A program made the position numbers and the translations under genes. A stretch of DNA of 20,911 bases. It comes from a virus. Location: positions 1 to 20,911 of IMG/VR virus record IMGVR_UViG_3300009285_008221; one strand, written 5' to 3'. How positions within the stretch are numbered: the stretch's first letter is position 1; every line of letters begins with the position of its first letter. Below are positions 1,381 through 20,446 of this stretch, piece by piece. Below the pieces are notes generated by a model. That model made no database searches. It was not told the origin of the DNA and saw only the letters and a list, made by a program, of their open reading frames with translations.

Positions 1381-2748
1381 TTAGCGATAGGTCTTGGTGA
1401 AGGTGCGATTGACGGCATGTCCGCGCTGGCGTACCAGCCGCGCGATGCGGGTGCGGTCGGTATGGCTGGCCGAGGCCTGCCGCAGCATGCCGAGGTAGCT
1501 GTTGGCGGACGCGTAGACCTCCTCGGCCGGCATGTTCCGCAGCCGGCTCAGCGCCTCATTGAACGTCCGCCGGCGGATGGTGCTGCGGTGCGGCTTGATG
1601 ACATGGCCGACGAAGTCGATGCCGCGGGCGATTGGCTGCAGGATCGTCTTGGCCGGGTTGAGGCGCGCGTGCAGCCGCTCCGCGAGGAACGCGCCGATCG
1701 CCGCGGCCGCGGCGTTCAGCCACTGGGCCGAATCGTGCAGCAGGATGAAGTCATCGACGTAGCGCACGTAATGCCGCGCGCGCACCTGGTGCTTGACGAA
1801 CTGGTCCAGCGGATCCAGATACACGTTCGCGAAAAACTGCGAGCTCAAGTTGCCGATCGGCAGCCCCAGGTGCGCCGGTTGGTTCCATAGGCTCTTGTGC
1901 GGCGGCACGCGCTCCAGCAGGTGGCGCGGCGTGCGCATGTCCACCTCGGGGCGCGGGTCGTGCATGAGGATCTGCTCGGCCAGGGCCATCGTCCAGGGCT
2001 CGGGGATGCGCGCGGCGAGCAACTCGCGCAGGATGCGCTTGTCGATCGAGACGAAGAAATTGGCCAGGTCCAGCTTCAGGTAGTACGCTGGCCGGGTCCA
2101 GTTCTCGGTGACGCTGCGCACCTTCGCCCCGAGGCGCTGGGCGGCGTACAGGGTGCCGCGACCCGGGATGCAGGCGCAGGTGTCCGCGATGAAGCTGCGG
2201 TGAAACCGGTCCGCGATGCGGTTGTAGAGCAGGTGATGCACCACGCGGTCGGTGAAGGGCGCGGCCCACACCTCGCGCGGCTTCGGGCGGGTGATGACGA
2301 AGCACGTCGAGCGTCCGGGCCGGTAGCTGCCGTCGCGCAGCGCCTGGTACAGCGCGAAGAGGTGGCGCTCCTGGTGCATTTCGAAGGTGAGTGCGCCCCG
2401 GGTGTTGCGCTTGGCGCGGCGGCAGTCGGTGTAGGCCTGGATCAACTCCTCAAAGGAAACATCAGCATGGCGGGCAGCGGTTTCACCTGCGGACGACGAA
2501 GGCCCGGTACTCGTTCGACTTGTGGTTGTTGTTCTGATTGCCGTTGCCGAAGTTCTGGATCCAAGCGTAGTCGTCGTTGAACTCGTTCTGCGTCCATTCG
2601 TGCTATCCACGTCGCCCCGCCGAAGGCCCGTGTCGGCGCCGATCAGCGGGGTAACTGCGCCGGACGCGTCTCGGCCGCCGAACAGATCCGGCTGGTCGAA
2701 GGTATCCGCGGTGCGCATGTCGGTGACCATGATGCGAGTCAGCGGCAC
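1381..2748 (-). CDS. DGR-type reverse transcriptase
   Basis: Reverse transcriptase of a diversity-generating retroelement; it copies TR RNA into adenine-mutagenised cDNA that replaces VR. From GTG 2748 the ORF is 455 aa. The RT core starts near residue 96: first catalytic Asp in LKLDLANFFVSID (D227), the DGR-typical LGLPIGNLSSQFFANVYLDPLD (294-315), and YVDD at 330-333 in the palm. PFTDRVVHHLL (165-174) is also typical of the clade. Residues about 52-88 are encoded by the template repeat itself. No usable in-frame start exists between TR and the conserved core, so translation must begin upstream of or within TR (GTG 2748, ATG 2730, ATG 2718 or GTG 2610; none has a good Shine-Dalgarno sequence). 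It lies 24 nt after avd. The order target-avd-TR-RT matches the Bordetella BPP-1 DGR. Start uncertain, function firm. Confidence 0.93.
   Translation of the reverse strand: MPLTRIMVTDMRTADTFDQPDLFGGRDASGAVTPLIGADTGLRRGDVDSTNGRRTSSTTTTLGSRTSATAIRTTTTSRTSTGPSSSAGETAARHADVSFEELIQAYTDCRRAKRNTRGALTFEMHQERHLFALYQALRDGSYRPGRSTCFVITRPKPREVWAAPFTDRVVHHLLYNRIADRFHRSFIADTCACIPGRGTLYAAQRLGAKVRSVTENWTRPAYYLKLDLANFFVSIDKRILRELLAARIPEPWTMALAEQILMHDPRPEVDMRTPRHLLERVPPHKSLWNQPAHLGLPIGNLSSQFFANVYLDPLDQFVKHQVRARHYVRYVDDFILLHDSAQWLNAAAAAIGAFLAERLHARLNPAKTILQPIARGIDFVGHVIKPHRSTIRRRTFNEALSRLRNMPAEEVYASANSYLGMLRQASASHTDRTRIARLVRQRGHAVNRTFTKTYR
2487..2593 (-). repeat. DGR template repeat (TR), 107 bp
   Basis: A 107-bp near-copy of the 3' ends of both target genes, between avd and the RT core. 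Read on the minus strand in the target-gene frame it encodes an Asn-rich segment (many AAC codons), the usual TR design, because AAC mutated at adenines reaches many residues without creating stop codons. The invariant end (2487-2507, ending CCGTCCGCAG-like on the sense strand) is GC-rich and identical in TR, VR1 and VR2, as expected for an initiation-of-mutagenic-homology region. On the plus strand 33 of 107 positions are T (sense A), and only these differ from the VRs. Confidence 0.95.
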
Positions 2749-2772
2749 GACCAGATGAAAATACGCACGGTT

Positions 2773-3162
2773 TTAATCGCCTTGACGATTGAAAAGCTGG
2801 CGTTGCTGCGGGCTGCCGAGTTCCTTCATTCGCGAGCGCCAGGCGTTGGTCTGCCGGCCGATCGACTGGGTGCGCTCGACGATATCCGCGTAGTGCTTCG
2901 CCGGTATCCAGCCTTTGTCCCGGCAGACGCGCGCGATCAACTCGATCACCTCCAGGCGCTCCAGCAGCCGCGCGAGCTCGGGCTCCTTGTCCTGGTCGAT
3001 GTTGGCCTGGCGCAGGTGGAGATCGAGCGCGATGCAGCTGTCGAGGATCCGGGCGCCCAGCGCGGTCTTGATGTCGCGCCGCATGTTGCGGATGACATCG
3101 CTCACCACGCCGAGCAGGTCGTAACACGCCCGGTACAGCGGAAGCTCGGAATGAAGGGCCAT
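2773..3162 (-). CDS. avd: DGR accessory variability protein Avd
   Basis: A 129-aa basic, almost entirely helical protein. LPLYRACYDLLGVVSDVIRN near the N-terminus, followed by MRRDIKTALGARILDSCIAL and a second helical half (PELARLLERLEVIELIARV), fits the four-helix-bundle Avd family, which forms a barrel-like pentamer, binds the reverse transcriptase and the TR RNA, and is needed for retrohoming. Position supports it: between the last target gene (stop 3190) and TR, as in phage BPP-1. The start ATG 3162 lacks a clear Shine-Dalgarno sequence and follows a run of seven T on its strand. The C-terminus is Gln/Arg-rich (SPQQRQLFNRQGD). Confidence 0.88.
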   Translation of the reverse strand: MALHSELPLYRACYDLLGVVSDVIRNMRRDIKTALGARILDSCIALDLHLRQANIDQDKEPELARLLERLEVIELIARVCRDKGWIPAKHYADIVERTQSIGRQTNAWRSRMKELGSPQQRQLFNRQGD

Positions 3163-3172
3163 GCTGAAAAAA

Positions 3173-3201
3173 ATTATTGAATGGTTAAATTACTGAATGG
3201 G
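3173..3201 (-). repeat. Conserved segment downstream of VR1 (copy 1)
   Basis: A 29-bp stretch overlapping the target-gene stop and trailing region, matching 3745-3773 behind VR2 at 23 of 29 positions. It contains repeated CCATTC motifs on the sense strand. In characterised DGRs the region just after the initiation site carries a structural element important for homing; whether this segment plays such a role or is just a duplication relic is unknown. I see no strong hairpin in it. Confidence 0.5.
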
Positions 3202-3729
3202 AATTCTGCGGACGACGAAGGCCCGGCACTCGTTCGACTTGCGGTAGGTGCTCTGACCGCCGTAGCCGAAGCTCTGGATCCAAGCGGAGCCGTCGAGGAA
3301 CTCGTACTGCGTAGAGGTCCAATGCCACGCGGCGGGGAAATGCCCTTTGCCGTTGACGTAGCCGAGGCGCGCTTCCTGCCGCGCGGCGATGTAGTAGTCC
3401 TGGTGGCCGTGGAGGTTCAGCCCCAGCACCTTCTTCGCGAGCTTGCTGCCCGCGGCGGCCATCGCCTGCGTGTTGGCGAGGCCGTCGTAGTCACTGAGCG
3501 CGCCGGGCACCTTGCTGGTAGGTCCCCACGCGCCTTTGAGTTCGTGATCGAGCCCCACGAGGTGATAGTCCGGCTGTCCCTGCTCGCCGCGGATCGCGCC
3601 GAGGTAGCGCCCGCCCTGGCCGGGCCAGAGCTCGCCGACGCGCGGCGGATCGATGGAGGCCGCTCTTGCCGGAACGGTGCGGGTGATCTTGTGCGGCGTC
3701 GCGCTGGTCGGTTTCTTCTTCGTGGCCAT
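3190..3729 (-). CDS. DGR variable target protein 1 (DUF1566/C-type-lectin-like)
   Basis: A 179-aa protein from ATG 3729, chosen for GGGAG six bases upstream and the lysine-rich N-terminus MATKKKPTS; longer upstream frames are shadows of the neighbouring target gene. There is no signal peptide. The C-terminal half (YDGLANTQAMAAAGSKLA, then HWTSTQYEF, AWIQSFGYGGQS, and RAFVVRR) fits the DUF1566/Lcl C-terminal domain, a C-type-lectin-like fold used by many DGR targets. Variable repeat VR1 occupies codons up to nearly the end, leaving IPIQ after the invariant block. Compared with the template, 12 residues differ (for example N to Y, L, S, G, T and H to R), so this copy has been diversified. It is a paralogue of the upstream target gene. 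The ligand is unknown. Confidence 0.88.
   Translation of the reverse strand: MATKKKPTSATPHKITRTVPARAASIDPPRVGELWPGQGGRYLGAIRGEQGQPDYHLVGLDHELKGAWGPTSKVPGALSDYDGLANTQAMAAAGSKLAKKVLGLNLHGHQDYYIAARQEARLGYVNGKGHFPAAWHWTSTQYEFLDGSAWIQSFGYGGQSTYRKSNECRAFVVRRIPIQ
3206..3312 (-). repeat. DGR variable repeat VR1
   Basis: Aligns to TR over 107 bp without gaps, with 14 substitutions, all at TR positions that are T on the plus strand (A in the sense strand). The first 21 bp (3206-3226) are identical to TR and VR2. Substitutions go to C, G and A, as expected from random incorporation opposite template adenines. Confidence 0.95.
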
Positions 3730-3744
3730 GAAAGCTCCCTGCGA

Positions 3745-3773
3745 ATGGTTGAATGGGTAAATCAGCGAATGGG
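3745..3773 (-). repeat. Conserved segment downstream of VR2 (copy 2)
   Basis: Counterpart of 3173-3201, covering the last codons and stop (TGA 3764-3762) of the upstream target gene. Here CCATTC occurs three times on the sense strand within about 35 bp. The TR itself is not followed by this sequence, so the segment could help tell VR from TR. Confidence 0.5.
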
Positions 3774-4286
3774 TTCTCTGCGGACGACGAAGGCCCGGTA
3801 CTCGGTCGACTTGCGGAGGCTGTCCTGATCGCCGTAGCCGAAGAGCTGGATCCAAGCGTAGTCGTCGTTGAACTCGTTCTGCGTGGATGACCAATACCAC
3901 TTGGACTCGAAGGCCTCGGCACCGTTGTCCCCGAAGAGCGGGCCGGCCGCCGCTACGTTGCCGCGAACCACAAGCAGATCCTGGCGGCTGGGGATATGCC
4001 AGTCGTTGAACCCGCCGAGGCGCAAGCCCTGCGCCCACTTGGCGAGCTCGCTGCCGGCCGCGGCCATGGCGCGGGTGTTGGCCAAGCCGTCGAAGTAGCT
4101 GAGCGCACCATCGACGCGCTTGAGCGATTTGTTCCAGGCGATGACGTCCTGCCGGCCTTCGGCTTTCGGTGCAACGATGATCGCGTAGGGCAGCGCGTCG
4201 ACGAACACGTGGCCGAGGCAGAAGCCGCCGGCGCATGCGGCGCCGATGGCGGGAACGATGAGGCGGGGTGTATCGGTGGCGTTCAT
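3762..4286 (-). CDS. DGR variable target protein 2 (DUF1566/C-type-lectin-like)
   Basis: A 174-aa protein from ATG 4286 with AAGG eight bases upstream. It is a paralogue of the next gene: YFDGLANTRAMAAAGSELA matches the corresponding block, followed by IPSRQDLLVV, KWYWSSTQNEF, AWIQLFGYGDQ and RAFVVRREPIR. KWYWSSTQ...AW.Q.F is the classic DUF1566/Lcl_C signature. The C-terminal ~36 residues are encoded by VR2; eight residues differ from the template (N to L, Y, D, D, S, L, T; H to R). No signal peptide is evident, although GAACAGGFCLGHVFV near the N-terminus is mildly hydrophobic. It is the first gene of the DGR cassette, 104 bp after the helicase-methyltransferase stop. Binding partner unknown. 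Confidence 0.88.
   Translation of the reverse strand: MNATDTPRLIVPAIGAACAGGFCLGHVFVDALPYAIIVAPKAEGRQDVIAWNKSLKRVDGALSYFDGLANTRAMAAAGSELAKWAQGLRLGGFNDWHIPSRQDLLVVRGNVAAAGPLFGDNGAEAFESKWYWSSTQNEFNDDYAWIQLFGYGDQDSLRKSTEYRAFVVRREPIR
3778..3884 (-). repeat. DGR variable repeat VR2
   Basis: 107 bp aligned to TR without gaps: 10 substitutions, all at sense-strand adenines. The end distal to the invariant block (3852-3884) is identical to TR, so differences cluster in the middle. This is compatible with partial cDNA replacement or with fewer rounds of mutagenesis than VR1. Confidence 0.95.
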
Positions 4287-4296
4287 GTTTTACCTT

Positions 4297-4394
4297 TCAG
4301 TTGTTCAGGGTGGGGCTTCTTTCGTTCCACTTCCGGATCGCTTCTTCGCGTCATCGCCGCAGAACGGGCAGGGCTGGATGTCGATATCGCTCAC
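4297..4394 (-). pseudogene. Remnant of Lar-like zinc-ribbon protein
   Basis: From GTG 4394, overlapping the preceding TGA as GTGA, the frame reads MSDIDIQPCPFCGDDA, the start of a Lar-type (restriction alleviation-like) CPFCG zinc ribbon, and stops at 4305 after 29 residues. The typical C-terminus of the same family, REEAIRKWNER, is found immediately afterwards in another frame, ending at 4297. The second zinc knuckle and the middle are absent. I infer an internal deletion that also shifted the frame. The 29-residue product could still be made but lacks half the zinc ligands. Family recognition rests on the two short motifs. Confidence 0.6.
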
Positions 4395-7300
4395 GCCGCC
4401 TCCTCCAATGCGTCCAGGTCGAACAGCGTCGGCATGGCAAGCCCGCGCTCGGCGGCGCGGCAATAGATGATCGAATCACGCCAGTAGGCGGCATTGAGCT
4501 CGCAGCCGAGGCCTCGCCGGCCGAGCTTTACCGCGCGCATGGGCACCGTTCCGAGCCCGGCGAACGGGTCGAAGACCGTCTCCGACTCCATCGAGAACCG
4601 CGTGACGAGCCTGTCGACGATGTCGAACTGCAGCGGGCAGAGGTGCATCTCGCGGCCCTTGGCCGCCTGGTCCGCGTTGAGCGTGCGCATGCGCGTGACA
4701 TCGGTCCACACGTCCGGGTGCCAGGACTGCGGTTGCAGTAACATGAAGGTCGACGGCAGCCAGCCGGAGCGGTCTACATGCTCGGCCAGGGCCACGTCCC
4801 GCTCGAAGTCGTAGACGTTCTCCAGGGAATATTTTCGGAACAGCTTAAAAATCGCCGCCTGGGGCAGCCCGTCCAGGTCTTCCGGTGCCAGCAGCCGGTC
4901 ACCGCTCGAGCGCCAGTAACCGTGCGCGTCGAACTGCCAGCGCGCCCGCGTGTACTTGTCCTTCGATTTCACGACCGGCACATCGGCGTAGCCGTTGGAG
5001 CGATCGGTGGGAGGCTTGCGAAAGAGCATCACATACTCGGGCAGGCCATTGCCCATGCGCGAGCCGTCTTTGCATTGCTCGGTCCAGCCGAGGCGATAGG
5101 TCTGGTTGTTCTCCCGGACGACATCGATCGGGATCGTGATGCGGCCGAGGAACGCGAAGCCGTGCTTTTCGAAGTGATCGGCGCAGGCGTCCGATATCCT
5201 GGTCACGGTCTGGAAGCCAAATCCGTTGATGCCGCCCGGGGTGATCCGATCCTTCACGTGGATGGCGCACACCCGGCCGGGCTGCAGCACGCGCAACAGT
5301 TGCGGCGTCAGGAAGTCCATCTGCCGCCAGAAGTGCGCGTTGTCGTCGGTGTGGCCGAAGTCGTTGTAGGAGGGCGAGTACTCGTACTGATGCGAGAACG
5401 GAATCGAGGTGACGATCAGGCCGACGCTCGCCGCCGGCATGGCTTGCGTCTCTTCCACGCAATCGTTGTGCACCAGGGTGAAGCGCTCACCGGAGGCCTC
5501 GATGCGCTCGCAGCCAATGGTGCGGCCCAGCATGTTCGCGATCGAGGCGTTCGAAAGCCCGAACTCGCGGATGATCTCGGTCATCCTGGCCACGAGCACG
5601 GTGTGCTGTTGCCACTTGCGCTCGAGCTCGCGGCGCACCTCGCGCTCGGCCTCGGTGTAGATGATATGCACCTTGCACGGGTGCTCTTGGCCAAACCGCT
5701 GTATCCGGTGGATCGCCTGCAGGAAATCCTGAAACTTGAACCCGATACCGGCAAAGACCATCTGGTGCGCCTGCTGCATGTTGACGCCGGCGCCATACAT
5801 CATCGGCTTGCTCAGGAATGCGAGTGTCTCCCGGGCCTTCCACTTCGCCAGCAAGGCCTCGCGCTCGTCGATGTCTTGGCTGCCGAACAGCGAAGAGTAC
5901 GAAACGCTGAGCGCTTGGAGCGCGGCGCCAATGGAGTCCTGCTCGTCGTTCAGGTCGCACCAGAGGACCCATTGCGAGCCGTCGCCGGCCGCGACAATCT
6001 CCCGGAGCCTGGCCACGCGGGCGGCCAGACTTGCGCGCTTCTCGCGCGAGGCCTCGGTGACGCCTATCGCTGCGTTCTTGAAGAGGCGGTTTTGCCCATC
6101 CTTCTCTGCGCCGGCGGCACGGTGATCCGAAGGAATCTCATGCCAAATGACATCAAGGGCCGGTAGCTGGTACCCCTCGTTGCACCTGCAGGTCAGCGAA
6201 CATCCGTTCAGGAGTCCAGCCGAGCTTGTGGCGGCTGTGGAGGAGCCAGTAGTTGGCGCCGAACTCTTCGGCCCATGCGGCGAGCGATTGGGTGCGGTCG
6301 CCGTGAGTGATGAGGATGGATCGTCGGGTGTTTCGGGCTTGGGCTTTTCGGGTTGCCCAGTGGCAGTTTCCGGGCGAGTAATGCCCGTCGTTGTCACGTC
6401 GCTCGATGGTTGCTCCTGGTGGCGGCTCTCCCATGTCGGCGAGGAAGTTCTCGAAGGACTTCCAGCGCTCGCAGACGATGATGCCGCGTCCGCCGTATTC
6501 AGCCCAGTTCTTGTGCTCGCGGCGCCGGCAACGGTCGAGCATTCCCTGCCAGATGGAGAAGGCGCGGGTTCCTTTTCCGCCGTGCTTGGGGCGGGCGCAT
6601 CCGCAACTGGTGTTACGGCCTTCGAGGAGATGGGTTGAGAAAGATCGGCGGGTATTGCCGCAGTCGCATCGGCAGCGCCAGGCGCCGTCCTGCCATCCTT
6701 CGACGATGAGCTTCCCGAATCGCTGACCTGTGAGTTCTTTGCGTCGCATTGGCAGATGTCGCTCGGTCGGGTGATGAACAGGGCCCAGCTGCTGACCCAC
6801 ATCCAGAATTCTTCTATTTTATGCGGGTGCAGCGTCAACGCGTCGGCCTTCTCGGAGTTCCGCTTGAAGAACCGCGTCTTCGCTTGTCCGACGTCCATGA
6901 CGCCGAGGAAGGCGCCATAGGCGAGCAACTCGATGTACTCGTTCGGGCTGGGCGTGGCCGTGGCCACGAACCGGAACGGCACGCCGGCTGATTCGACGCG
7001 CTGCGAGCGGTCGCGCCGATCGTCGCCGGCAAATAGCGCCATCGACTCGCGAAACGTCTTGGTGCCGCCGAAGCCGCGCAGGATAGAAGCCTCGTCCAGG
7101 CTTACCGCGACGGGCCTGAGCGCGGCGACATCGAGGATCCCCTCGCGCACCGATTCGTAGTTCGTGAGGTAGATCGAGCGCTCGTCGTCCACCTCGCCCG
7201 CGCGCCGGATGAACTTGAGGCGCACCGCATGCTCGCCCCCGAAGTGCAGCTCTGCGTCGCGGAAGAACTCCTGGCGGACGCCGAGCGGCAAAGTGATGAG

Positions 7301-7528
7301 CCGGATGCCCGGGCGTCGCACGCCGATCAAGCGCATCAGCTCGATCTGCGTCACGGTCTTGTGCAGGCCGAAGGCGGCAAAGATCGCCCGGCGCCCGCCA
7401 GCAGCCGCCCATTGCACGACCTCTTGCGTGAAGGGCTTCAGCGCCGGATTGATCTCGGCCGGATCGACATCGAACCCGGCGCGCTCGCCGAGCTTGATCT
7501 TGGCTTCGAGGAAGGCGCGGTAGTCCAT
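4391..7528 (-). CDS. Helicase-DNA methyltransferase fusion, interrupted in frame by HNH gene
   Basis: A 1045-codon ORF from ATG 7528 (overlapping the upstream TGA as TGATG). Residues 1-258: SF2/SNF2-like helicase with Walker A-like FGLHKT (53-58), DEAS (145-148) and ATATPSP (189-195). Residues 447-660: second RecA half, with GFKFQDFLQAIHRIQRFGQ (motif VI). Residues 685-1045: amino-methyltransferase with TSIPFS as motif IV and FDPFAGLGT (about 987-994) as the SAM-binding motif, in the order of beta-class N4/N6 MTases. Residues 259-446 are a Ser/Thr/Pro/Ala-rich stretch where the DNA also encodes an HNH endonuclease in another frame; without it the protein is 857 aa, close to family members I recall. 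Walker A has His where Gly is usual. It probably modifies phage DNA. Whether the long form is functional is unknown. Confidence 0.85.
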   Translation of the reverse strand: MDYRAFLEAKIKLGERAGFDVDPAEINPALKPFTQEVVQWAAAGGRRAIFAAFGLHKTVTQIELMRLIGVRRPGIRLITLPLGVRQEFFRDAELHFGGEHAVRLKFIRRAGEVDDERSIYLTNYESVREGILDVAALRPVAVSLDEASILRGFGGTKTFRESMALFAGDDRRDRSQRVESAGVPFRFVATATPSPNEYIELLAYGAFLGVMDVGQAKTRFFKRNSEKADALTLHPHKIEEFWMWVSSWALFITRPSDICQCDAKNSQVSDSGSSSSKDGRTAPGAADATAAIPADLSQPISSKAVTPVADAPAPSTAEKEPAPSPSGRECSTVAGAASTRTGLNTADAASSSASAGSPSRTSSPTWESRHQEQPSSDVTTTGITRPETATGQPEKPKPETPDDPSSSLTATAPNRSPHGPKSSAPTTGSSTAATSSAGLLNGCSLTCRCNEGYQLPALDVIWHEIPSDHRAAGAEKDGQNRLFKNAAIGVTEASREKRASLAARVARLREIVAAGDGSQWVLWCDLNDEQDSIGAALQALSVSYSSLFGSQDIDEREALLAKWKARETLAFLSKPMMYGAGVNMQQAHQMVFAGIGFKFQDFLQAIHRIQRFGQEHPCKVHIIYTEAEREVRRELERKWQQHTVLVARMTEIIREFGLSNASIANMLGRTIGCERIEASGERFTLVHNDCVEETQAMPAASVGLIVTSIPFSHQYEYSPSYNDFGHTDDNAHFWRQMDFLTPQLLRVLQPGRVCAIHVKDRITPGGINGFGFQTVTRISDACADHFEKHGFAFLGRITIPIDVVRENNQTYRLGWTEQCKDGSRMGNGLPEYVMLFRKPPTDRSNGYADVPVVKSKDKYTRARWQFDAHGYWRSSGDRLLAPEDLDGLPQAAIFKLFRKYSLENVYDFERDVALAEHVDRSGWLPSTFMLLQPQSWHPDVWTDVTRMRTLNADQAAKGREMHLCPLQFDIVDRLVTRFSMESETVFDPFAGLGTVPMRAVKLGRRGLGCELNAAYWRDSIIYCRAAERGLAMPTLFDLDALEEAA
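6153..6749 (-). CDS. HNH homing-type endonuclease nested in methyltransferase gene
   Basis: A 198-aa protein from ATG 6749. The N-terminus ([16 protein letters not shown]) and a four-Cys knuckle (CRCDCGN...SCGC) precede the HNH region: [42 protein letters not shown] and RNTRRS, the well-known signature of free-standing phage HNH endonucleases. [23 protein letters not shown] looks like a C-terminal DNA-binding segment. Its ATG lies 3 nt from the host-gene junction, and its last 12 codons run into the downstream host coding sequence in another frame, so almost no noncoding DNA accompanies it. It has no separate promoter that I can see; ATG is preceded only by host coding sequence. Such enzymes cut an uninterrupted allele and spread by repair. 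Confidence 0.85.
   Translation of the reverse strand: [198 protein letters not shown]
6178..6190 (-). repeat. Imperfect direct repeat at downstream HNH insertion junction
   Basis: Partner of 6741-6754. Immediately after it the host protein resumes with EGYQLPALDV, while the endonuclease frame continues to its stop at 6153. Confidence 0.6.
6741..6754 (-). repeat. Imperfect direct repeat at upstream HNH insertion junction
   Basis: TGCCAATGCGACG on the minus strand resembles TGCAGGTGCAACG at the other junction (6178-6190): TGC-NNN-TGC-RAC-G. Their starts are 564 nt apart, a multiple of three. Collapsing the two restores PSDI-C-x-C-(D/N)-EGYQLP, the contiguous host reading that I expect from the family. 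Confidence 0.6.
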
Positions 7529-7797
7529 CAGGCGAACAACGCCTTCTGGCTGTGCGTCGGGCAGCCCGGCGGGATGTCGGCGCGCAGGATCGTGCCGTAG
7601 CGGTCGGCGTGTACCGGGATGTCGGCCTCGAAGAACCGGCAACGGTTGTGCGGGGCACGGCGGCTGCCGTCGACGCTGACTTGCCCGTGTGGTGCGGAAT
7701 ACCAGAGGTACTTGCAGCCGTTGCAGGCGGGCCCGCGTGTCAGGTCTTCGCTCGCGTACGGGTTGTCAAGCGCCGGATCGTGGCAGTCGTCGCTCAC
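7528..7797 (-). CDS. Small Cys-containing hypothetical protein, 89 aa
   Basis: Starts at GTG 7797, overlapping the stop of the DndC-like gene by GTGA, and stops with TGA overlapping the ATG of the helicase-methyltransferase. The protein carries CNGC and two further Cys (NRC and PPGC), a possible metal site, around WYSAPHGQVSVDGSRRAPHN. I do not recognise a named family. The tight overlap on both sides indicates that it is a genuine member of the DNA-modification operon. Confidence 0.75.
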   Translation of the reverse strand: MSDDCHDPALDNPYASEDLTRGPACNGCKYLWYSAPHGQVSVDGSRRAPHNRCRFFEADIPVHADRYGTILRADIPPGCPTHSQKALFA

Positions 7798-9020
7798 GGC
7801 GCTGGCTCCTTGAACAGCAGCGGCTGGACCGCACCGTTCTGATAGACCGTCTCCAGCAGCTCGTCGGCGCCGGGCTCGTCGCCGTCCCAGCCCTGCGGCC
7901 AGGTCTTCGCCGCGATCAATTCGCGGATGCGCGCCTCTTCCTCTGCGTTGAGGATGTCGATCGGCGGATGGTCAAGCAGTCGCGCCGCCTCGTTGCAGTC
8001 GCGCTGGACCCACAGCACCTGATCGAGCGCCCACAGCCGCGCCTCGAACGTGAGCGGGCCCATGCGCTGAGGATTCTTTGCGATCGAACCGTCTTTCAGC
8101 GTCTCGGCGCCCGCTTTGCGCAACCGGCGCTGCGGCTCACGCAGTGCTCGGTACAGCGGCTTCAGCCGCCTCAACGGGTCCAGATAACGCCAGTACGGCT
8201 TCTCAAGGATCGTGTCGAGCGCCTTCTCCTCCTGAGCGAGCGGGCAGCCGATGCAGCCAGTGCGAGCGTTGATCTCTTGCGCCTCATCGCCGCCGTAGGC
8301 ATCAGCGATCGGCCTGGTGGGCCAGTCGCCGTATTCCGGGTCCGGCGCAAAGAAGTTCAGCCAGTCCCACACGTGGCAGACCCGCCAGTGCAGCAGTGGT
8401 GCGAGCGTCGCGATGCGCCCACGAAGGCCCTTCGCCTCGGGCAGCACCTGTTGATACCAGCCTTGCCCGCACTCCGCGCCGTCCTTCGAGCAGCTCATTT
8501 CGATGCGGCGGTCGCGAATGGCGCTCTCTCCCTGGCGTACTCCGGTGATCATCAGTGCCGATCCACCGAAGGTATCGAGCGTGTGCGCCAGCGCCTGCTG
8601 CATCGGTTCGACCTTGATCTGGCGCGTGCACCAGCGCAGCGTGTTGTTGTTCGGCGGTGGCACTCCACGGCCCAGGATGTAGACGAGGAAGCGCTTATCG
8701 AGCGCTGCGGTGACGACCCGAACATTGATGTCGCGGCGGCGCAACTCGTCCATGATTTGCAGCGCAGCGATGGCGAGCGGCGGCAGCTCCATGCGGGTGT
8801 CGGCGTAAAAGACCGTCAGACGCTTCGGCGGCTGGATCTGCCCGCTCGCTATAAGGTGGCAGACGAGCGTCAGGGTGGCGCTCGAATCCTTGCCGCCGGA
8901 CCAGGCGATGGCCCAGTGTGCATGCGCGGGCCCGTACGCCGCGAGCGACTGGACGGTAAGCTCGATCGACTCGGTCATTTGCATCCGCCGGCCGCCGTCG
9001 AAGAAGCTCGTCTGCTTCAC
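7794..9020 (-). CDS. DndC/PAPS-reductase-like ATP-pyrophosphatase
   Basis: 408 aa from GTG 9020 (overlapping the upstream stop as GTGA); ATG at 8984 is an alternative. AIAWSGGKDSSATL puts the PP-loop SGGKDS at residues 41-46, followed by TVFYADTRMELPPL and RWCTRQIKVEP (Cys131), then RTGCIGCP (Cys256, Cys259), a Cys pattern shared with DndC-like proteins that use an iron-sulfur cluster. DndC adenylates the DNA backbone for phosphorothioation; PAPS reductases reduce sulfate. No dndB, dndD or dndE homologue is visible in the window, so neither activity can be assigned. The position, between two methyltransferase genes, favours a nucleic-acid modification role. The family call to PAPS-reductase/DndC superfamily is firm. 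Confidence 0.85.
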   Translation of the reverse strand: MKQTSFFDGGRRMQMTESIELTVQSLAAYGPAHAHWAIAWSGGKDSSATLTLVCHLIASGQIQPPKRLTVFYADTRMELPPLAIAALQIMDELRRRDINVRVVTAALDKRFLVYILGRGVPPPNNNTLRWCTRQIKVEPMQQALAHTLDTFGGSALMITGVRQGESAIRDRRIEMSCSKDGAECGQGWYQQVLPEAKGLRGRIATLAPLLHWRVCHVWDWLNFFAPDPEYGDWPTRPIADAYGGDEAQEINARTGCIGCPLAQEEKALDTILEKPYWRYLDPLRRLKPLYRALREPQRRLRKAGAETLKDGSIAKNPQRMGPLTFEARLWALDQVLWVQRDCNEAARLLDHPPIDILNAEEEARIRELIAAKTWPQGWDGDEPGADELLETVYQNGAVQPLLFKEPAP

Positions 9021-9250
9021 GCCGCGACTTTCGCTTGCAGTGGCGCGAGCAACTCGGACTCAAGCAGCCACCAGTAGTCGCCGTCGTCCAATTCGCAGCC
9101 GGTGTCTTCGTGAAGCCACTTTGCGCCGCGCCACATGAAAATGCCGACGAGATAGAACGCGTCTTCGTCCTCATCCGGCTCGCGTGTGGCAATCAGGGCT
9201 GTGATGGGCTCGGCCGTGCCGGGCTGCTCTGAAATGGGGCGCCAGTTCAT
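9017..9250 (-). CDS. DUF551-like small phage protein, 77 aa
   Basis: From ATG 9250 (ATGA overlap with the methyltransferase stop) to TGA overlapping the GTG of the next gene. MNWRPISEQP at the start, acidic stretches and the Trp-rich end DGDYWWLLESELL resemble DUF551-type phage proteins, which begin W-x-P-x-x-x-x-P and end with a WMP/WWLP-like motif. Function unknown. An in-frame ATG at 9274 is inside the upstream gene and is less likely. Confidence 0.75.
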   Translation of the reverse strand: MNWRPISEQPGTAEPITALIATREPDEDEDAFYLVGIFMWRGAKWLHEDTGCELDDGDYWWLLESELLAPLQAKVAA

Positions 9251-10655
9251 GCGGCCTCCAGCATCGCTGCACAAAGTGCCGTGCCTGTGCGGATCGGGAC
9301 AGCGTTGCCGATTTGCTTCGTGATCTCGGTCGCGGTGCCGGTGAACCGGTACGGGCGGCCCTCGTCCTCGAACGAGGTGGCGCGCGCGAGCTCGGTCCAG
9401 TGCAGCATCCTGTAAAGAATGTCTATGCAGTACTCGCCGCCCAGGGCTGGGGCAGCGACCGCCAGTTCTCCGCGATTCGCGCCGGTAATGGTCGGGAGCG
9501 GCTCCGACACGCCGCGGGCGCGATTCGAGCGGTCGTGATGCGTGATGTGCGCAACGAACGGCTCGGCGAGCTGGATGTGACCGCTCGCGGCGATCGTTGG
9601 CGCGGGCTCCATGATCGAGTGCGTGCGCGGCGCCTGGCCGGGGCGCTCGCCGAAGTTCGGGACGAGGAACGGCGTGGCCACGCCGAAGCGGTTTGCCGTG
9701 TCCTGAGCGGGCAGCGGGTCGTCGGATTGACTGATTCTCTGGCTTTCGCCGTGATACGCAGCGAGGAACGGCGTCGCGAGCGCGAAGCGATCCTTCGTTC
9801 CTTGGGCGGGCAGCGGTTCGTTCGCGCTCTGTCCGGTGAGGCCGCTACCGGCGCCGTAGTACGGCGTGATGATCGGTTGGGCGAGAAAACCCGCGCCGTT
9901 CGTTGTCACTGTGGGTACCGGCTCGCCGACGCTACGGGCGCTGCGGCCGCCGGCGCTGTTCATCTTGTGCAGGATGATGGGCTCCGCGAAATGCGGCGTG
10001 GCGCCGTGCCCTCCCGTGGTGAGTGTAGGAATCGGTTGATCGACCCCGCGGGCCGCGCCGCCGGCGCCTGTGGCCATGACGAGCGGGGTGCCGAGTTGCA
10101 GCGCGATGATTGCGGCCTCGTCCCGCGAGACATGGAGCCGAGGCGGCCGGCCATCGATCAGCGCCTGCAGCGCCTCGATGTGCTGCCGCGGCCAGTGATT
10201 GCGGGTCGCCCCGGCCAGCAGCCGCGTGAGCGTGTTCGCCACGAGCGGGCGCTTACGCGTGAAGATGCTCGATCCCGGCCGCGACCAATCGATGATCTCG
10301 GCCGCCGCGCGCCAGGGTTTGCGGGCGCTCACGAGATCGACATGGCCGCCTCGGGCGTGCGTCGGCTCGGGCCAGCGCAGCGCCTTCGCGTCGCTGCGCG
10401 CGTAGTAGAAGAAGCGCTCGCGGGTGGTCGCGTCGCCGAAGTTCGCGCACGTCAGCACCCGCCATTCCCCGCGCATGCCGATCGCTCGCAGTGCCTGGAC
10501 CCAGGCGCGGAAATATTCGCCGCGGCGCTTCTTCAGCGGCTTGCCGGTGCGCGCGTCGCACGGTCCCCAGTCGCAGAATTCCGGAACGTTCTCGACGATG
10601 AGCCGATGCACGCGCAGGTCCGTGCACCAGCGTACGACGTGCCATGGGTCCATGC
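9247..10655 (-). pseudogene. C5 cytosine DNA methyltransferase lacking its N-terminus
   Basis: The remaining 468 residues begin MDPWHVVRWCTDLRVHRLIVENVPEF, where IVENV is motif VI of C5 methyltransferases, and end TKQIGNAVPI, the GNAVP motif X. ATTRERFFYYARSD is motif VIII. Missing are motif I (FAGxGG, SAM binding) and motif IV (the catalytic Pro-Cys), normally in the first ~115 residues. The upstream DNA instead encodes the first domain of a sliding clamp in another frame. The target-recognition region holds about six degenerate ~34-residue repeats (EP-x-PT-x-T ... A-x-PF). Without motif IV it should be catalytically inactive alone. An assembly error at about 10655-10672 is an alternative explanation. 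Confidence 0.75.
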
Positions 10656-17388: not shown

Positions 17389-17463
17389 AAATTTTTTTGC
17401 CTTTCGCTTCGACGATCGGCGACACGTTGTAAAACGCCAGCGACAGCCCGGGAGGGCAGTGCG

Positions 17464-17709
17464 ATGGAAGAAGAACCAGGCATCTCGATCGAGGAAGCCG
17501 AGGCGCGTAATCCCGGCTGTCTCATCGTCGCGGTGCAGTACGGCAAGCCGGTGCTGCCCGAGTACCCGAAAGGCTGCTGGTGCTTACTCGCGGTGCCGAC
17601 GGCGAAGCTCGACTGGGTGGACACCTCGAAGCTGCCGGAGGCGCTGCGTTCGTTTGTTGAGTTCCGGCCGCGCTGCCTGGAGCTCCACGTGCCGAAGGCG
17701 GCGCCGTGA
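17464..17709 (+). CDS. Small hypothetical protein, 81 aa
   Basis: ATG 17464 with GGGAGGG upstream. Acidic N-terminus (EEEPGISIEEAEARNPGCLI), then a beta-rich Cys/Trp region (YGKPVLPEYPKGCWCLLAVP) and a C-terminal helix. Ends in GTGA overlap with the next gene and so belongs to the primase operon. Function unknown. Confidence 0.7.
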   Translation: MEEEPGISIEEAEARNPGCLIVAVQYGKPVLPEYPKGCWCLLAVPTAKLDWVDTSKLPEALRSFVEFRPRCLELHVPKAAP

Positions 17710-17918
17710 GCTACTTCGGGAGGGGCGATCGGGTGATTACGCCGACCGGCGAGACGGCGCAGGTAGTGTCCGTCGCGCCGGACGACCGGCTGCACCTCGA
17801 GTACGTCGGCGCGCTGCGGCGCGATCACGCGCAGCTTTCCCTACCGGCGAAGCTCTGCCGCAAGATCGAGCCGGGGCAGCGCGTCCCGGAACCGGCGCGG
17901 GTGAAGGTGCTGGCCTAA
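17706..17918 (+). CDS. Small beta-barrel-like hypothetical protein, 70 aa
   Basis: GTG 17706 overlaps the previous TGA; TAA overlaps the primase ATG (TAATG). FGRGDRVITPTGETAQVVSV followed by LHLEYVGALRRDHAQLSL reads like a small SH3/KOW-type barrel (G-D-x-V-x-x-P-x-G-x-x-G-x-V pattern). It may bind nucleic acid or the primase, but that is a guess based on fold and context. Confidence 0.7.
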   Translation: MSYFGRGDRVITPTGETAQVVSVAPDDRLHLEYVGALRRDHAQLSLPAKLCRKIEPGQRVPEPARVKVLA

Positions 17919-20446
17919 TGGTTCCCGAAGCACTCAAGACTCTCTCGCAGTGGCTGGGCTGGAAGCTCGAGCAAAAGTCCGGGCAGAAGAAGCCGGCGAA
18001 GATGCCGTACTACGTGGATGGCGGGCGGCGCGTGGGCACGCAGGGCGATGAGCGCGATCGGCAGCGCCTCACCACGTTCGAGCATGCCATGGAGCAGATG
18101 AGTCGCGCTCGCTATGACGGCGTAGGCTTCGCGTTCCTCAAGGGCGACGGCCTGATCGGGATCGATCTCGACAGCGTGATCAACCCGGAAACGGGCGAGA
18201 TCTCGGAGCGCGCTCTGGCGATCGTGACGGCCTGCAACAGTTTTACGGAGTATTCGCCGTCGGCGACGGGCCTGCACATCTACGTGCAGGGCGAGACGAC
18301 GACGTTCAAGTCGAACGACATCGGCCTCGAGGTGTTCTGCGGGGCGCAGTATTTCACGGTGACGGGGAAGCACTTCCCCGGCTCACCCGAGACGGTGAAC
18401 CCGATCAGCGCGGCGGTGCTGAGCCGCCTGCGCGCGACGGTGGACCAGGCGAAGGGCAAGCGGCAAGCGGCACCGCCGAAGCAGAGCGCCGGCACGGCGA
18501 ACGACTTCGCGCGGGTGAACGAGGCGGCGCTCGCGAGCCTCGACGCGTGGGTGCCGACGCTCTTCCCGAGCGCCAAGCGCGCCCAGAACGGCTATCGCGT
18601 GCCGCAGCGCGATCTCGGCCGGGATCTCCAGGAGGACCTGTCGATCCACCAGGACGGCATCGTCGACTGGGGTGTGGCCGACATGGGCGATCCCAAACAG
18701 GGCAAACGCACGCCGATCGACCTGGTGCTGGAGTGGGGCAACTGTAGCAAGCCCAACGACGCGCTGCACTGGCTTGCGTCCCGGCTGAACGTCGAGGTGC
18801 AGAGGCGGGCACCGCGGGGAAGCGGCGCGAAGAAGTCGAGCGGGGGAAGCGCGTCGCAGGAACCTCCGCCCGAAGATCCCCCTCCTCCCGATGACCAGGG
18901 GGAAGAGCGCCGCCACGGCAAGCTCGTCATCAAGTGGCGCGAGGGGCAACTGCACGAGATCGTCGATCTCGCCGAGCGGGCGCTTCTCGAGGCCACCGAG
19001 CGCATCTACCAGCGCGACAAGCTGCTGGTGCGCGTGACGCGCCGCGCTGCGCCCTCGGTGCGCAACTACAAGCGCCCGGCGGGCTCGCTCGGCCTGCAGA
19101 CCGTCGATCCGCCGTATCTCACGGAGCTGCTCACCCGCTCGGCGTACTGGGAACGGTGGAACGCGAAGGCCGACGACTGGCGGCCGATCAATGCACCCGA
19201 GAAGGTGGCGATCACCTATCTCGCGCGTTCGGGGCACTGGAAGCTCCCGGAGCTGTGGGGCGTGATCACCGCGCCCACCCTGCGACCCGACGGGACGATT
19301 CTCCAGAAGCCCGGGTACGACCCGGATCTCAAGGTCTGGTACGACCCATGCGGGATCGAGTTTCCCGAGGTACCGGAGCGGCCTACGAAGAGCGAGGCGA
19401 CCGCGGCGCTGAACGATCTCGACGAAGCGTTCGACCAGATGCCGTTTCGCGAGAACGTCGATCGTGCGGTGGCGCTCTCGCTCGCGCTGACGGCGCTGGT
19501 GCGCCGCAGCCTTCCCGCGGCCCCGCTTGGGGCCATCACGGCGCCCATCCCGGCCGCCGGCAAGACTCTGATCGCTGATTGCATCGCCATCCTCGGCACC
19601 GGATCGCCGGCACCGGCGATGAGTTACTCGGACAACGACGACGAGGCGAAAAAGACTGCGCTCGCCGTGCTCATGGAAGGCGATGTCGTGGTGCTCATCG
19701 ACAACATCGAGCGCCCGCTGCAGGGCGACTGGTTGTGCTCGATCCTCACCTCGGAGCAATTCAGCCAGCGCGTGCTGGGCCGCACCGAGATGGCGAAGGT
19801 GCTCACCACGACGCTGTTTCTCGCCACGGGCAACCAGCTCGTCATTACCGGCGACCTGCGCACCCGCGCTCTGTTGTGTCGGCTCGATCCGCAATGCGAG
19901 CGGCCCGAGGAGCGCGAATTCATGGTGGACCTGCGCGAGCAGTTCCTCCGACTGCGCCCGCGCCTGGTGACGGCGGGTCTCACGGTGATGCGTGCGTTTC
20001 TCGCGAGCCGGGAGTCGGTGCCCGTGAAACCGTGGGGGCGCTTCGAGTCCTGGTCGGACATGGTGCGCGCTCCCCTCGTGTGGCTGGGCTACGCAGATCC
20101 GTGCGAGTCACTGCGCACGATCGAGACCGATGACCCCGAGCGCGGGCTGCACCTGCGCTTCATGCTCGCTTGGCTGCAGGAGTTCGAGGGTAAGCCGAAA
20201 ACCTCGCGCGAGGCCATCACCTGGGTGGAAGAGGCTGCGCTTAGGGGGATCGACCCCACACCCCTGATGGATGTGATCCGCGATATCGCCACCGACCGCG
20301 GCGAGAAACTCAACGTGAAGCGTCTGAGCGGCTGGATCGGGCGCCACGTGAGCCGAATCGTCGCTGGCATGCATCTGCTGAAAGACGGCCAGCACAACCA
20401 CACCGATCTCTGGAAAGTGGAAAAAGTCATGCAAAACACGAGCTAA
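17918..20446 (+). CDS. Phage primase-polymerase/helicase
   Basis: 842 aa from ATG 17918. Residues 1-170: PrimPol-like domain, with GLIGIDLDSV (79-88) providing the D-x-D metal ligands, SATGLHIYV (115-123) the S-x-H-type motif, and EVFCGAQYFTVTGKHF (138-153). A Pro-rich acidic linker covers about 300-330. Residues 500-690: AAA+/SF3-like helicase with APIPAAGKT (542-550) as Walker A, VVLIDNIE (591-598) as Walker B, and FLATGNQL (634-641) as sensor 1. The Walker A lacks the usual Gly before the loop (GxxGTGKT), but K549-T550 remain. It should prime and unwind phage DNA and is typical of single-protein primase-helicases in phages and NrS-1-like elements. It is followed by a terminator. Confidence 0.88.
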   Translation: MVPEALKTLSQWLGWKLEQKSGQKKPAKMPYYVDGGRRVGTQGDERDRQRLTTFEHAMEQMSRARYDGVGFAFLKGDGLIGIDLDSVINPETGEISERALAIVTACNSFTEYSPSATGLHIYVQGETTTFKSNDIGLEVFCGAQYFTVTGKHFPGSPETVNPISAAVLSRLRATVDQAKGKRQAAPPKQSAGTANDFARVNEAALASLDAWVPTLFPSAKRAQNGYRVPQRDLGRDLQEDLSIHQDGIVDWGVADMGDPKQGKRTPIDLVLEWGNCSKPNDALHWLASRLNVEVQRRAPRGSGAKKSSGGSASQEPPPEDPPPPDDQGEERRHGKLVIKWREGQLHEIVDLAERALLEATERIYQRDKLLVRVTRRAAPSVRNYKRPAGSLGLQTVDPPYLTELLTRSAYWERWNAKADDWRPINAPEKVAITYLARSGHWKLPELWGVITAPTLRPDGTILQKPGYDPDLKVWYDPCGIEFPEVPERPTKSEATAALNDLDEAFDQMPFRENVDRAVALSLALTALVRRSLPAAPLGAITAPIPAAGKTLIADCIAILGTGSPAPAMSYSDNDDEAKKTALAVLMEGDVVVLIDNIERPLQGDWLCSILTSEQFSQRVLGRTEMAKVLTTTLFLATGNQLVITGDLRTRALLCRLDPQCERPEEREFMVDLREQFLRLRPRLVTAGLTVMRAFLASRESVPVKPWGRFESWSDMVRAPLVWLGYADPCESLRTIETDDPERGLHLRFMLAWLQEFEGKPKTSREAITWVEEAALRGIDPTPLMDVIRDIATDRGEKLNVKRLSGWIGRHVSRIVAGMHLLKDGQHNHTDLWKVEKVMQNTS

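Follow-up and report, generated by a model that had tools for sequence, protein, structure and literature searches.

A diversity-generating retroelement (DGR) was examined in a 20,911-base virus contig of IMG/VR (IMGVR_UViG_3300009285_008221). The whole record was analysed and is referred to as the window (W in the locus lists). The explanation that we favour, and regard as very probable, is that a phage DGR rewrites two paralogous C-type-lectin genes, with the structured RNA RT-15 placed 5' of the template repeat (TR), the frame of the reverse transcriptase (RT) running through the TR, octamer arrays following the two variable repeats (VRs), and a mechanism, proposed below, that would join these parts. 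The cassette is a genuine DGR because it combines adenine-only changes, the accessory protein Avd, an RT resembling that of Bordetella phage BPP-1, and C-type lectin targets.

Adenine-specific variation and the genes of the cassette

The repeats have the following positions in the window.

2487-2593, minus strand: TR, 107 nucleotides (nt) with 33 adenines and 74 non-adenine positions
3206-3312, minus strand: VR1, 14 differences from the TR, all on TR adenines
3778-3884, minus strand: VR2, 10 differences from the TR, all on TR adenines

The original prediction had described a complete DGR, in which the TR differed from two VRs at adenines only and avd and a DGR-type RT were adjacent. Computed alignments of 107 nt, both without gaps, reproduced the coordinates of the repeats and the two counts exactly. 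On realignment, all differences (24/24) fell on a plus-strand T, that is, a sense-strand A of the TR, and none on the 74 other positions. The probability that randomly placed differences would all lie on A was 6.7e-9 for VR1 and 2.6e-6 for VR2. A scan of the full record detected three copies only of the TR sequence, namely the TR, VR1, and VR2, and the homology ended abruptly at the TR/VR limits on both sides.

The VRs had also been said to differ at mostly independent positions. This wording was loose, as 6 of the 10 positions changed in VR2 were also altered in VR1, although the overlap is consistent with independent mutagenesis: the chance expectation is 4.2 positions, and the probability of at least 6 is 0.17. 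The same base was present in VR1 and VR2 at 3 of the 6 shared positions. Independent mutagenesis predicts an overlap of this size, which is thus not an extra proof of it.

The cassette genes all lie on the minus strand and follow one another as target 2, target 1, avd, TR, and RT.

3762-4286, minus strand: target gene 2, 174 amino acids, Lcl_C / C-type lectin fold, VR2 at the C terminus (Pfam PF07603, E 2e-11)
3190-3729, minus strand: target gene 1, about 179 amino acids from the ATG at 3729, VR1 at the C terminus; its frame extends further upstream
2773-3162, minus strand: avd, accessory protein, 129 amino acids (phrog_3206 'Avd protein of DGR', E 6e-21)
1381-2772, minus strand: RT open reading frame (ORF) including the TR
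1384-2466, minus strand: part of the RT alignable with relatives, with IGxxxSQ and YVDD motifs by eye

Target 1 is a paralogue of target 2 (46% identity). Pfam profiles assigned both to the Lcl_C / C-type lectin kind, with a weak match for one. Target 2 was modelled with AlphaFold2 from an alignment of 30 family members; the model had a mean pLDDT of 92, and its top match in PDB was 8q4e (Lcl C-terminal domain), followed by C-type lectins with weak E-values. Avd also matched NF033474 (E 1e-10, under the curated cut-off) and PF22296 bAvd (E 2e-8, under the cut-off). In the RT, LPIGNLSSQ and YVDD were recognised by eye where expected. Its closest solved relative was 8ub7 (E 2e-38), which we take to be the BPP-1 DGR RT, and the next was a group II maturase (E 2e-9); the match to 8ub7 was far better than that to any group II or retron RT. 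The best PDB relative and the IGNLSSQ motif indicate that the enzyme belongs to the DGR clade. An A-specific TR/VR pair, Avd, and a C-type-lectin-like target with the VR at its C terminus were all found and support the identification of the cassette as a DGR.

These results bear on another origin of the repeats, by gene duplication or recombination instead of DGR action. The targets are paralogues, so duplication did happen; however, the same 107-nt homology limits recur in three contexts, every change lies on an adenine, and Avd and a DGR-type RT adjoin. The window alignment and the 103-locus scan described below refute this origin in practice, and we give it almost no chance.

The cassette resembles the BPP-1 DGR (mtd-avd-TR-brt) in the use of one strand and in the order target, avd, TR, and RT, as well as in the location of the VR at the 3' end of a C-type-lectin gene and in adenine mutagenesis (PMC12875486, PMC3240598). 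Searching with the RT yielded 80 viral and 22 genomic loci, mainly from Pseudomonas and Burkholderiales phages and prophages. When 103 loci were scanned from their TRs, 2661 mismatches at A sites were counted versus 79 others. Two VRs were found in 71 of these loci and three in 16; accordingly, the tandem pair is the standard layout in the RT family, and the paired targets of the window are no novelty. DGRs with 2-4 VRs were already listed in 2012 in Pseudomonas, Burkholderia, Ralstonia, and Collimonas (PMC3521204), and multi-VR DGRs made up 28.6% in a later survey (PMC6642488). Burkholderia phage Magia and Pseudomonas phages LPPA56 and Cruim01 share the RT family (62-66% identity to the window RT), RT-15, and the avd order. 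The annotators of Magia pointed to a possible DGR target that has an IMH-like region, and in Cruim01 RT-15 is annotated next to the RT. A third VR was located several kilobases from the cassette in L045, L063, L091, L095, and L099 (offsets -3414 to -7576).

RT-15 and the template in the frame of the reverse transcriptase

A structured RNA was detected beside the template. The original prediction had contained neither this RNA nor two other features treated below, the TR within the RT frame and the octamer arrays after the VRs.

2591-2805, minus strand: RT-15 structured RNA (Rfam RF03018), overlapping the avd 3' end and abutting the TR 5' end

The match by cmscan was full length (147.9 bits, E 1e-35; gathering score 82) and ended within the first TR bases. 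RT-15 occupied the same place in ten diverse relatives, including phages Magia and LPPA56, and 20 of 32 predicted pairs had two-sided compensatory changes in an alignment of 28 rows, of which 27 were distinct. For an unbiased test, 300 genomes belonging to a single bacterial order were scanned with the RNA model. The six matches that exceeded the cut-off were all followed immediately by a DGR RT, with VRs close by, and none of the three below the cut-off had a DGR RT adjacent. Rfam files RF03018 as a small RNA (sRNA) gene, whereas in the window it flanks a DGR template on the 5' side and shares sequence with the RT frame.

The placement of the RNA is reversed relative to BPP-1. In the BPP-1 record the TR abuts avd and 144 nt separate the TR from brt, whereas the window has approximately 180 nt of RT-15 5' of the TR and no 3' spacer. 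The BPP-1 spacer folds, recruits RT-Avd, and provides the priming adenine (PMC12875486). In the window, the gap between the TR end and the aligned RT start is about 20 nt, and a BPP-1-type TR-RT spacer was not found in it. A spacer of this kind concealed in the RT coding sequence was rejected, since a synonymous-site scan of the first RT codons showed no constraint and hence no sign of such an element there.

The RT frame of the window was open across the whole TR, up to the avd stop codon. No in-frame ATG, GTG, or TTG was present from the TR 5' end to the aligned RT start (2466), and the in-frame candidates lie upstream of the TR.

GTG 2748, ATG 2730, ATG 2718, and GTG 2610, minus strand: candidate RT starts

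The frames were then compared in 151 non-redundant loci. The distance from the TR end to the RT ranged from 4 to 48 nt, yet a single phase was kept in 147/151 loci. This and the other phase counts take related loci as independent, and how many different lengths occur is more informative. Loci were grouped as Pseudomonas-type or other by a TR motif, not by phylogeny. In 96 of the 101 non-Pseudomonas-type loci, the RT frame was free of stops from the RT-15 ATG site through the TR (19 and 6 for the other frames), and the ATG site was in phase zero with the RT in 87/101. In a set of 25 loci, the other two frames were open in just 1 and 3, and base shuffles predicted 2.8 open frames. The Pseudomonas-type loci have ATGATG inside the TR, and the phases of their RT-15 ATG sites scatter (32, 13, 2), which serves as an internal control; in most Pseudomonas loci the RT start is within the TR. 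An in-frame start upstream of the TR was present in 93 of 102 loci tested. Of the remaining nine, most carry a start codon within the TR or immediately behind it, and one, L240, has its ATG where the RT begins. From these comparisons of reading frames, we conclude that translation of the RT probably includes the TR in the majority of the RT family.

Two narrower views of the start were discarded. The RT-15 ATG as the only start is too strict, because the ATG is absent in 12 of the 87 in-phase loci and several upstream starts are present. A start shared with avd was also considered; in the window the stop codon of avd falls in the frame of the RT, but the frame differs elsewhere. In L102 (approximately 210 nt upstream of the RT start at 9992), the RT frame reads the TR in the VR/lectin frame, and the RT extension would hold a lectin-like TR peptide.

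The overlap of the TR with the RT ORF is as such not new. Schillinger 2012 placed DGRs with a TR that extends into the annotated RT ORF in one group (DiGReF structural group 3) and took this as diversity of arrangement; the section consulted contains no analysis of frames or starts and no link to a structured RNA (PMC3521204). The frame test, the link with RT-15, and the two modes of starting were not found in the literature searched, which lacks most subscription journals.

The extension of the RT that would be translated from the upstream starts contains a short motif.

2680-2694, minus strand: QPDLF in the RT N-terminal extension, possible beta-clamp-binding motif

Related motifs were found at one shared place, namely QPDLF in the window, QLDLF in L074, L097, and L220, QLALDF in L078, and QLPLF in L116. 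L220 and L074 encode QLDLF with differing synonymous codons, and this points to selection at the protein level. The beta-clamp-binding consensus is QL[SD]LF. A clamp-binding role of the extension is possible and is offered as a lead only. A group II intron RT reportedly works together with DnaN at the fork (PMC8914252).

An ordinary DGR with a non-coding TR has to be weighed against translation of the template. The open frame would then be a by-product of base composition and RT-15 structure, and the RT would start at a non-canonical codon just before the conserved domain. A structured GC-rich RNA contains few stop codons, the frame frequently continues open beyond the RT-15 ATG in the upstream direction, the window has a TTG at +21, and no clear Shine-Dalgarno sequence lies ahead of the RT-15 ATG. 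Against this reading, the other two frames were open in so few of the 25 loci, and the shuffles likewise predicted few open frames; the TR-RT distances vary in length with the phase kept. Moreover, many loci have no ATG, GTG, or TTG between the TR and the RT or in the first 20 codons, and QLDLF is kept despite the different codons in L220 and L074. We consider the non-coding TR unlikely.

Marks after the variable repeats and retrohoming activity

A repeated pattern was found downstream of both VRs.

3743-3770, minus strand: octamer array (ATTY-N4)x4 just 3' of VR2, candidate recipient mark
3171-3198, minus strand: octamer array (ATTY-N4)x4 just 3' of VR1

The pattern had two matches in 20.9 kb, just those after the VRs (0.00 expected), so that an array of 8-nt period follows each VR of the window and not the TR. 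In the RT family, at least three TT at exact 8-nt spacing were present in 114 of 125 VR flanks (1.6 in shuffles), and none of 63 TR flanks had even two TT at this spacing. In BPP-1, a hairpin follows the VR and is needed for efficient homing (Guo et al., PMC3240598), whereas the window has the octamer array without a hairpin. A script found no stem of at least 5 within 90 nt after the window VRs and the fold z was approximately 0.3; a BPP-1-type hairpin was rejected on these results. GC hairpins of the BPP-1 kind follow 62 of 125 VRs of the RT family, as judged by our own detector. A word search of Guo et al. (PMC3240598) found neither 'direct repeat' nor 'iteron'.

Activity was examined with sister loci in which the TR was the same (at most 1 difference) and RT identity was 93-96%. 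Their VRs differed at 50% of TR-A sites versus 0.56% of other sites. Near-identical pairs could not be used, as all 15 were identical duplicates and uninformative. These sequence comparisons are strong evidence for retrohoming activity in the RT family. The original prediction had called the system active or recently active, and this is well supported at the level of the RT family.

For the window phage itself, the DGR could have stopped working, with VR1 and VR2 as frozen relics of past mutagenesis. We regard this as quite improbable. RT, avd, and both targets are intact, as are the octamer arrays, and neither VR has gained any non-A change. The lack of a hairpin after both VRs would speak for a defunct element, given the requirement in BPP-1, but half of the VRs of the RT family have no hairpin either. 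Its other support is L004, the only near-identical contig of the window, which matches it at 100% over 5283 nt, both VRs included; this contig possibly comes from the same population and is hence weak evidence.

Some templates of the RT family were unusual. The number of TR adenines was reduced in L021, L083, and L081, where the TR lies immediately ahead of the RT (18, 19, and 23, respectively, versus 25-31 in most relatives). The TRs of L021 and L083 were almost identical to their own VRs, as if a VR-like sequence had overwritten the TR, and the RT of L083 had an internal stop.

Other genes of the window were as follows.

4391-7642, minus strand: long ORF adjoining the DGR, with helicase C-terminal and N4/N6 DNA methylase domains
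7794-9020, minus strand: PAPS-reductase-like protein (phrog_12882)
9247-10653, minus strand: C5 cytosine methylase
17459-20446: primase-like ORF

With the PAPS-reductase-like, C5 methylase, and primase-like ORFs, the surroundings look like an early region; the DGR targets were not seen near tail genes.

Proposed mechanism and its meaning

In the mechanism that we propose for the rewriting of the two lectin genes, a single transcript would run from avd through RT-15 and the TR to the RT. RT-15 would be the docking, and perhaps the priming, domain for RT-Avd in place of the BPP-1 3' spacer. The template RNA would also be the mRNA of the RT, with the start upstream of the TR in the window or inside the TR in the Pseudomonas relatives, and template use and RT translation should then compete. 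The adenine-mutagenised cDNA would replace the VR, and the recipient may be marked by the A-poor 3' end of the repeat together with the octamer array that follows.

A more far-reaching combination is put forward tentatively, with less than even confidence. The template RNA and the RT mRNA would be one molecule, with the RT translated through the TR from a start in RT-15 or the TR; RT-15 would have replaced the 3' spacer, and binding of the RT would repress its own translation; the VR would be recognised by the 8-nt repeat; and in a sub-clade including the window the TR-linked extension may bind the replication clamp and bring the RT to forks.

Several observations weigh against the proposed mechanism. 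The RT-15 ATG site was out of phase in 14/101 loci, and the RT frame is often open further upstream of this ATG. For the start codon of the RT there are several in-frame upstream candidates. In L103 and in L251, a locus from the RNA search, the TR is in another phase and an ATG follows just after it; together with L240, these loci start after the TR, and hence a DGR of this type can do without translation of the TR. The priming role of RT-15 is one that we infer, and the identity of the VRs in L004, which is maybe of the same population, also belongs on this side.

To our knowledge, the recognition and priming of a DGR template RNA have been worked out for BPP-1 alone. The present RT family seems to rely on an RNA at the opposite side of the template and to hold the template within the RT gene, an unusual arrangement, so that the general rule can be tested. 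A possible function is thereby suggested for RT-15, an Rfam family without one, and the octamer array is a new candidate recognition element. A built-in competition between making the RT enzyme and using the template is predicted. Such compact cassettes may be of interest for directed protein evolution in laboratory strains.

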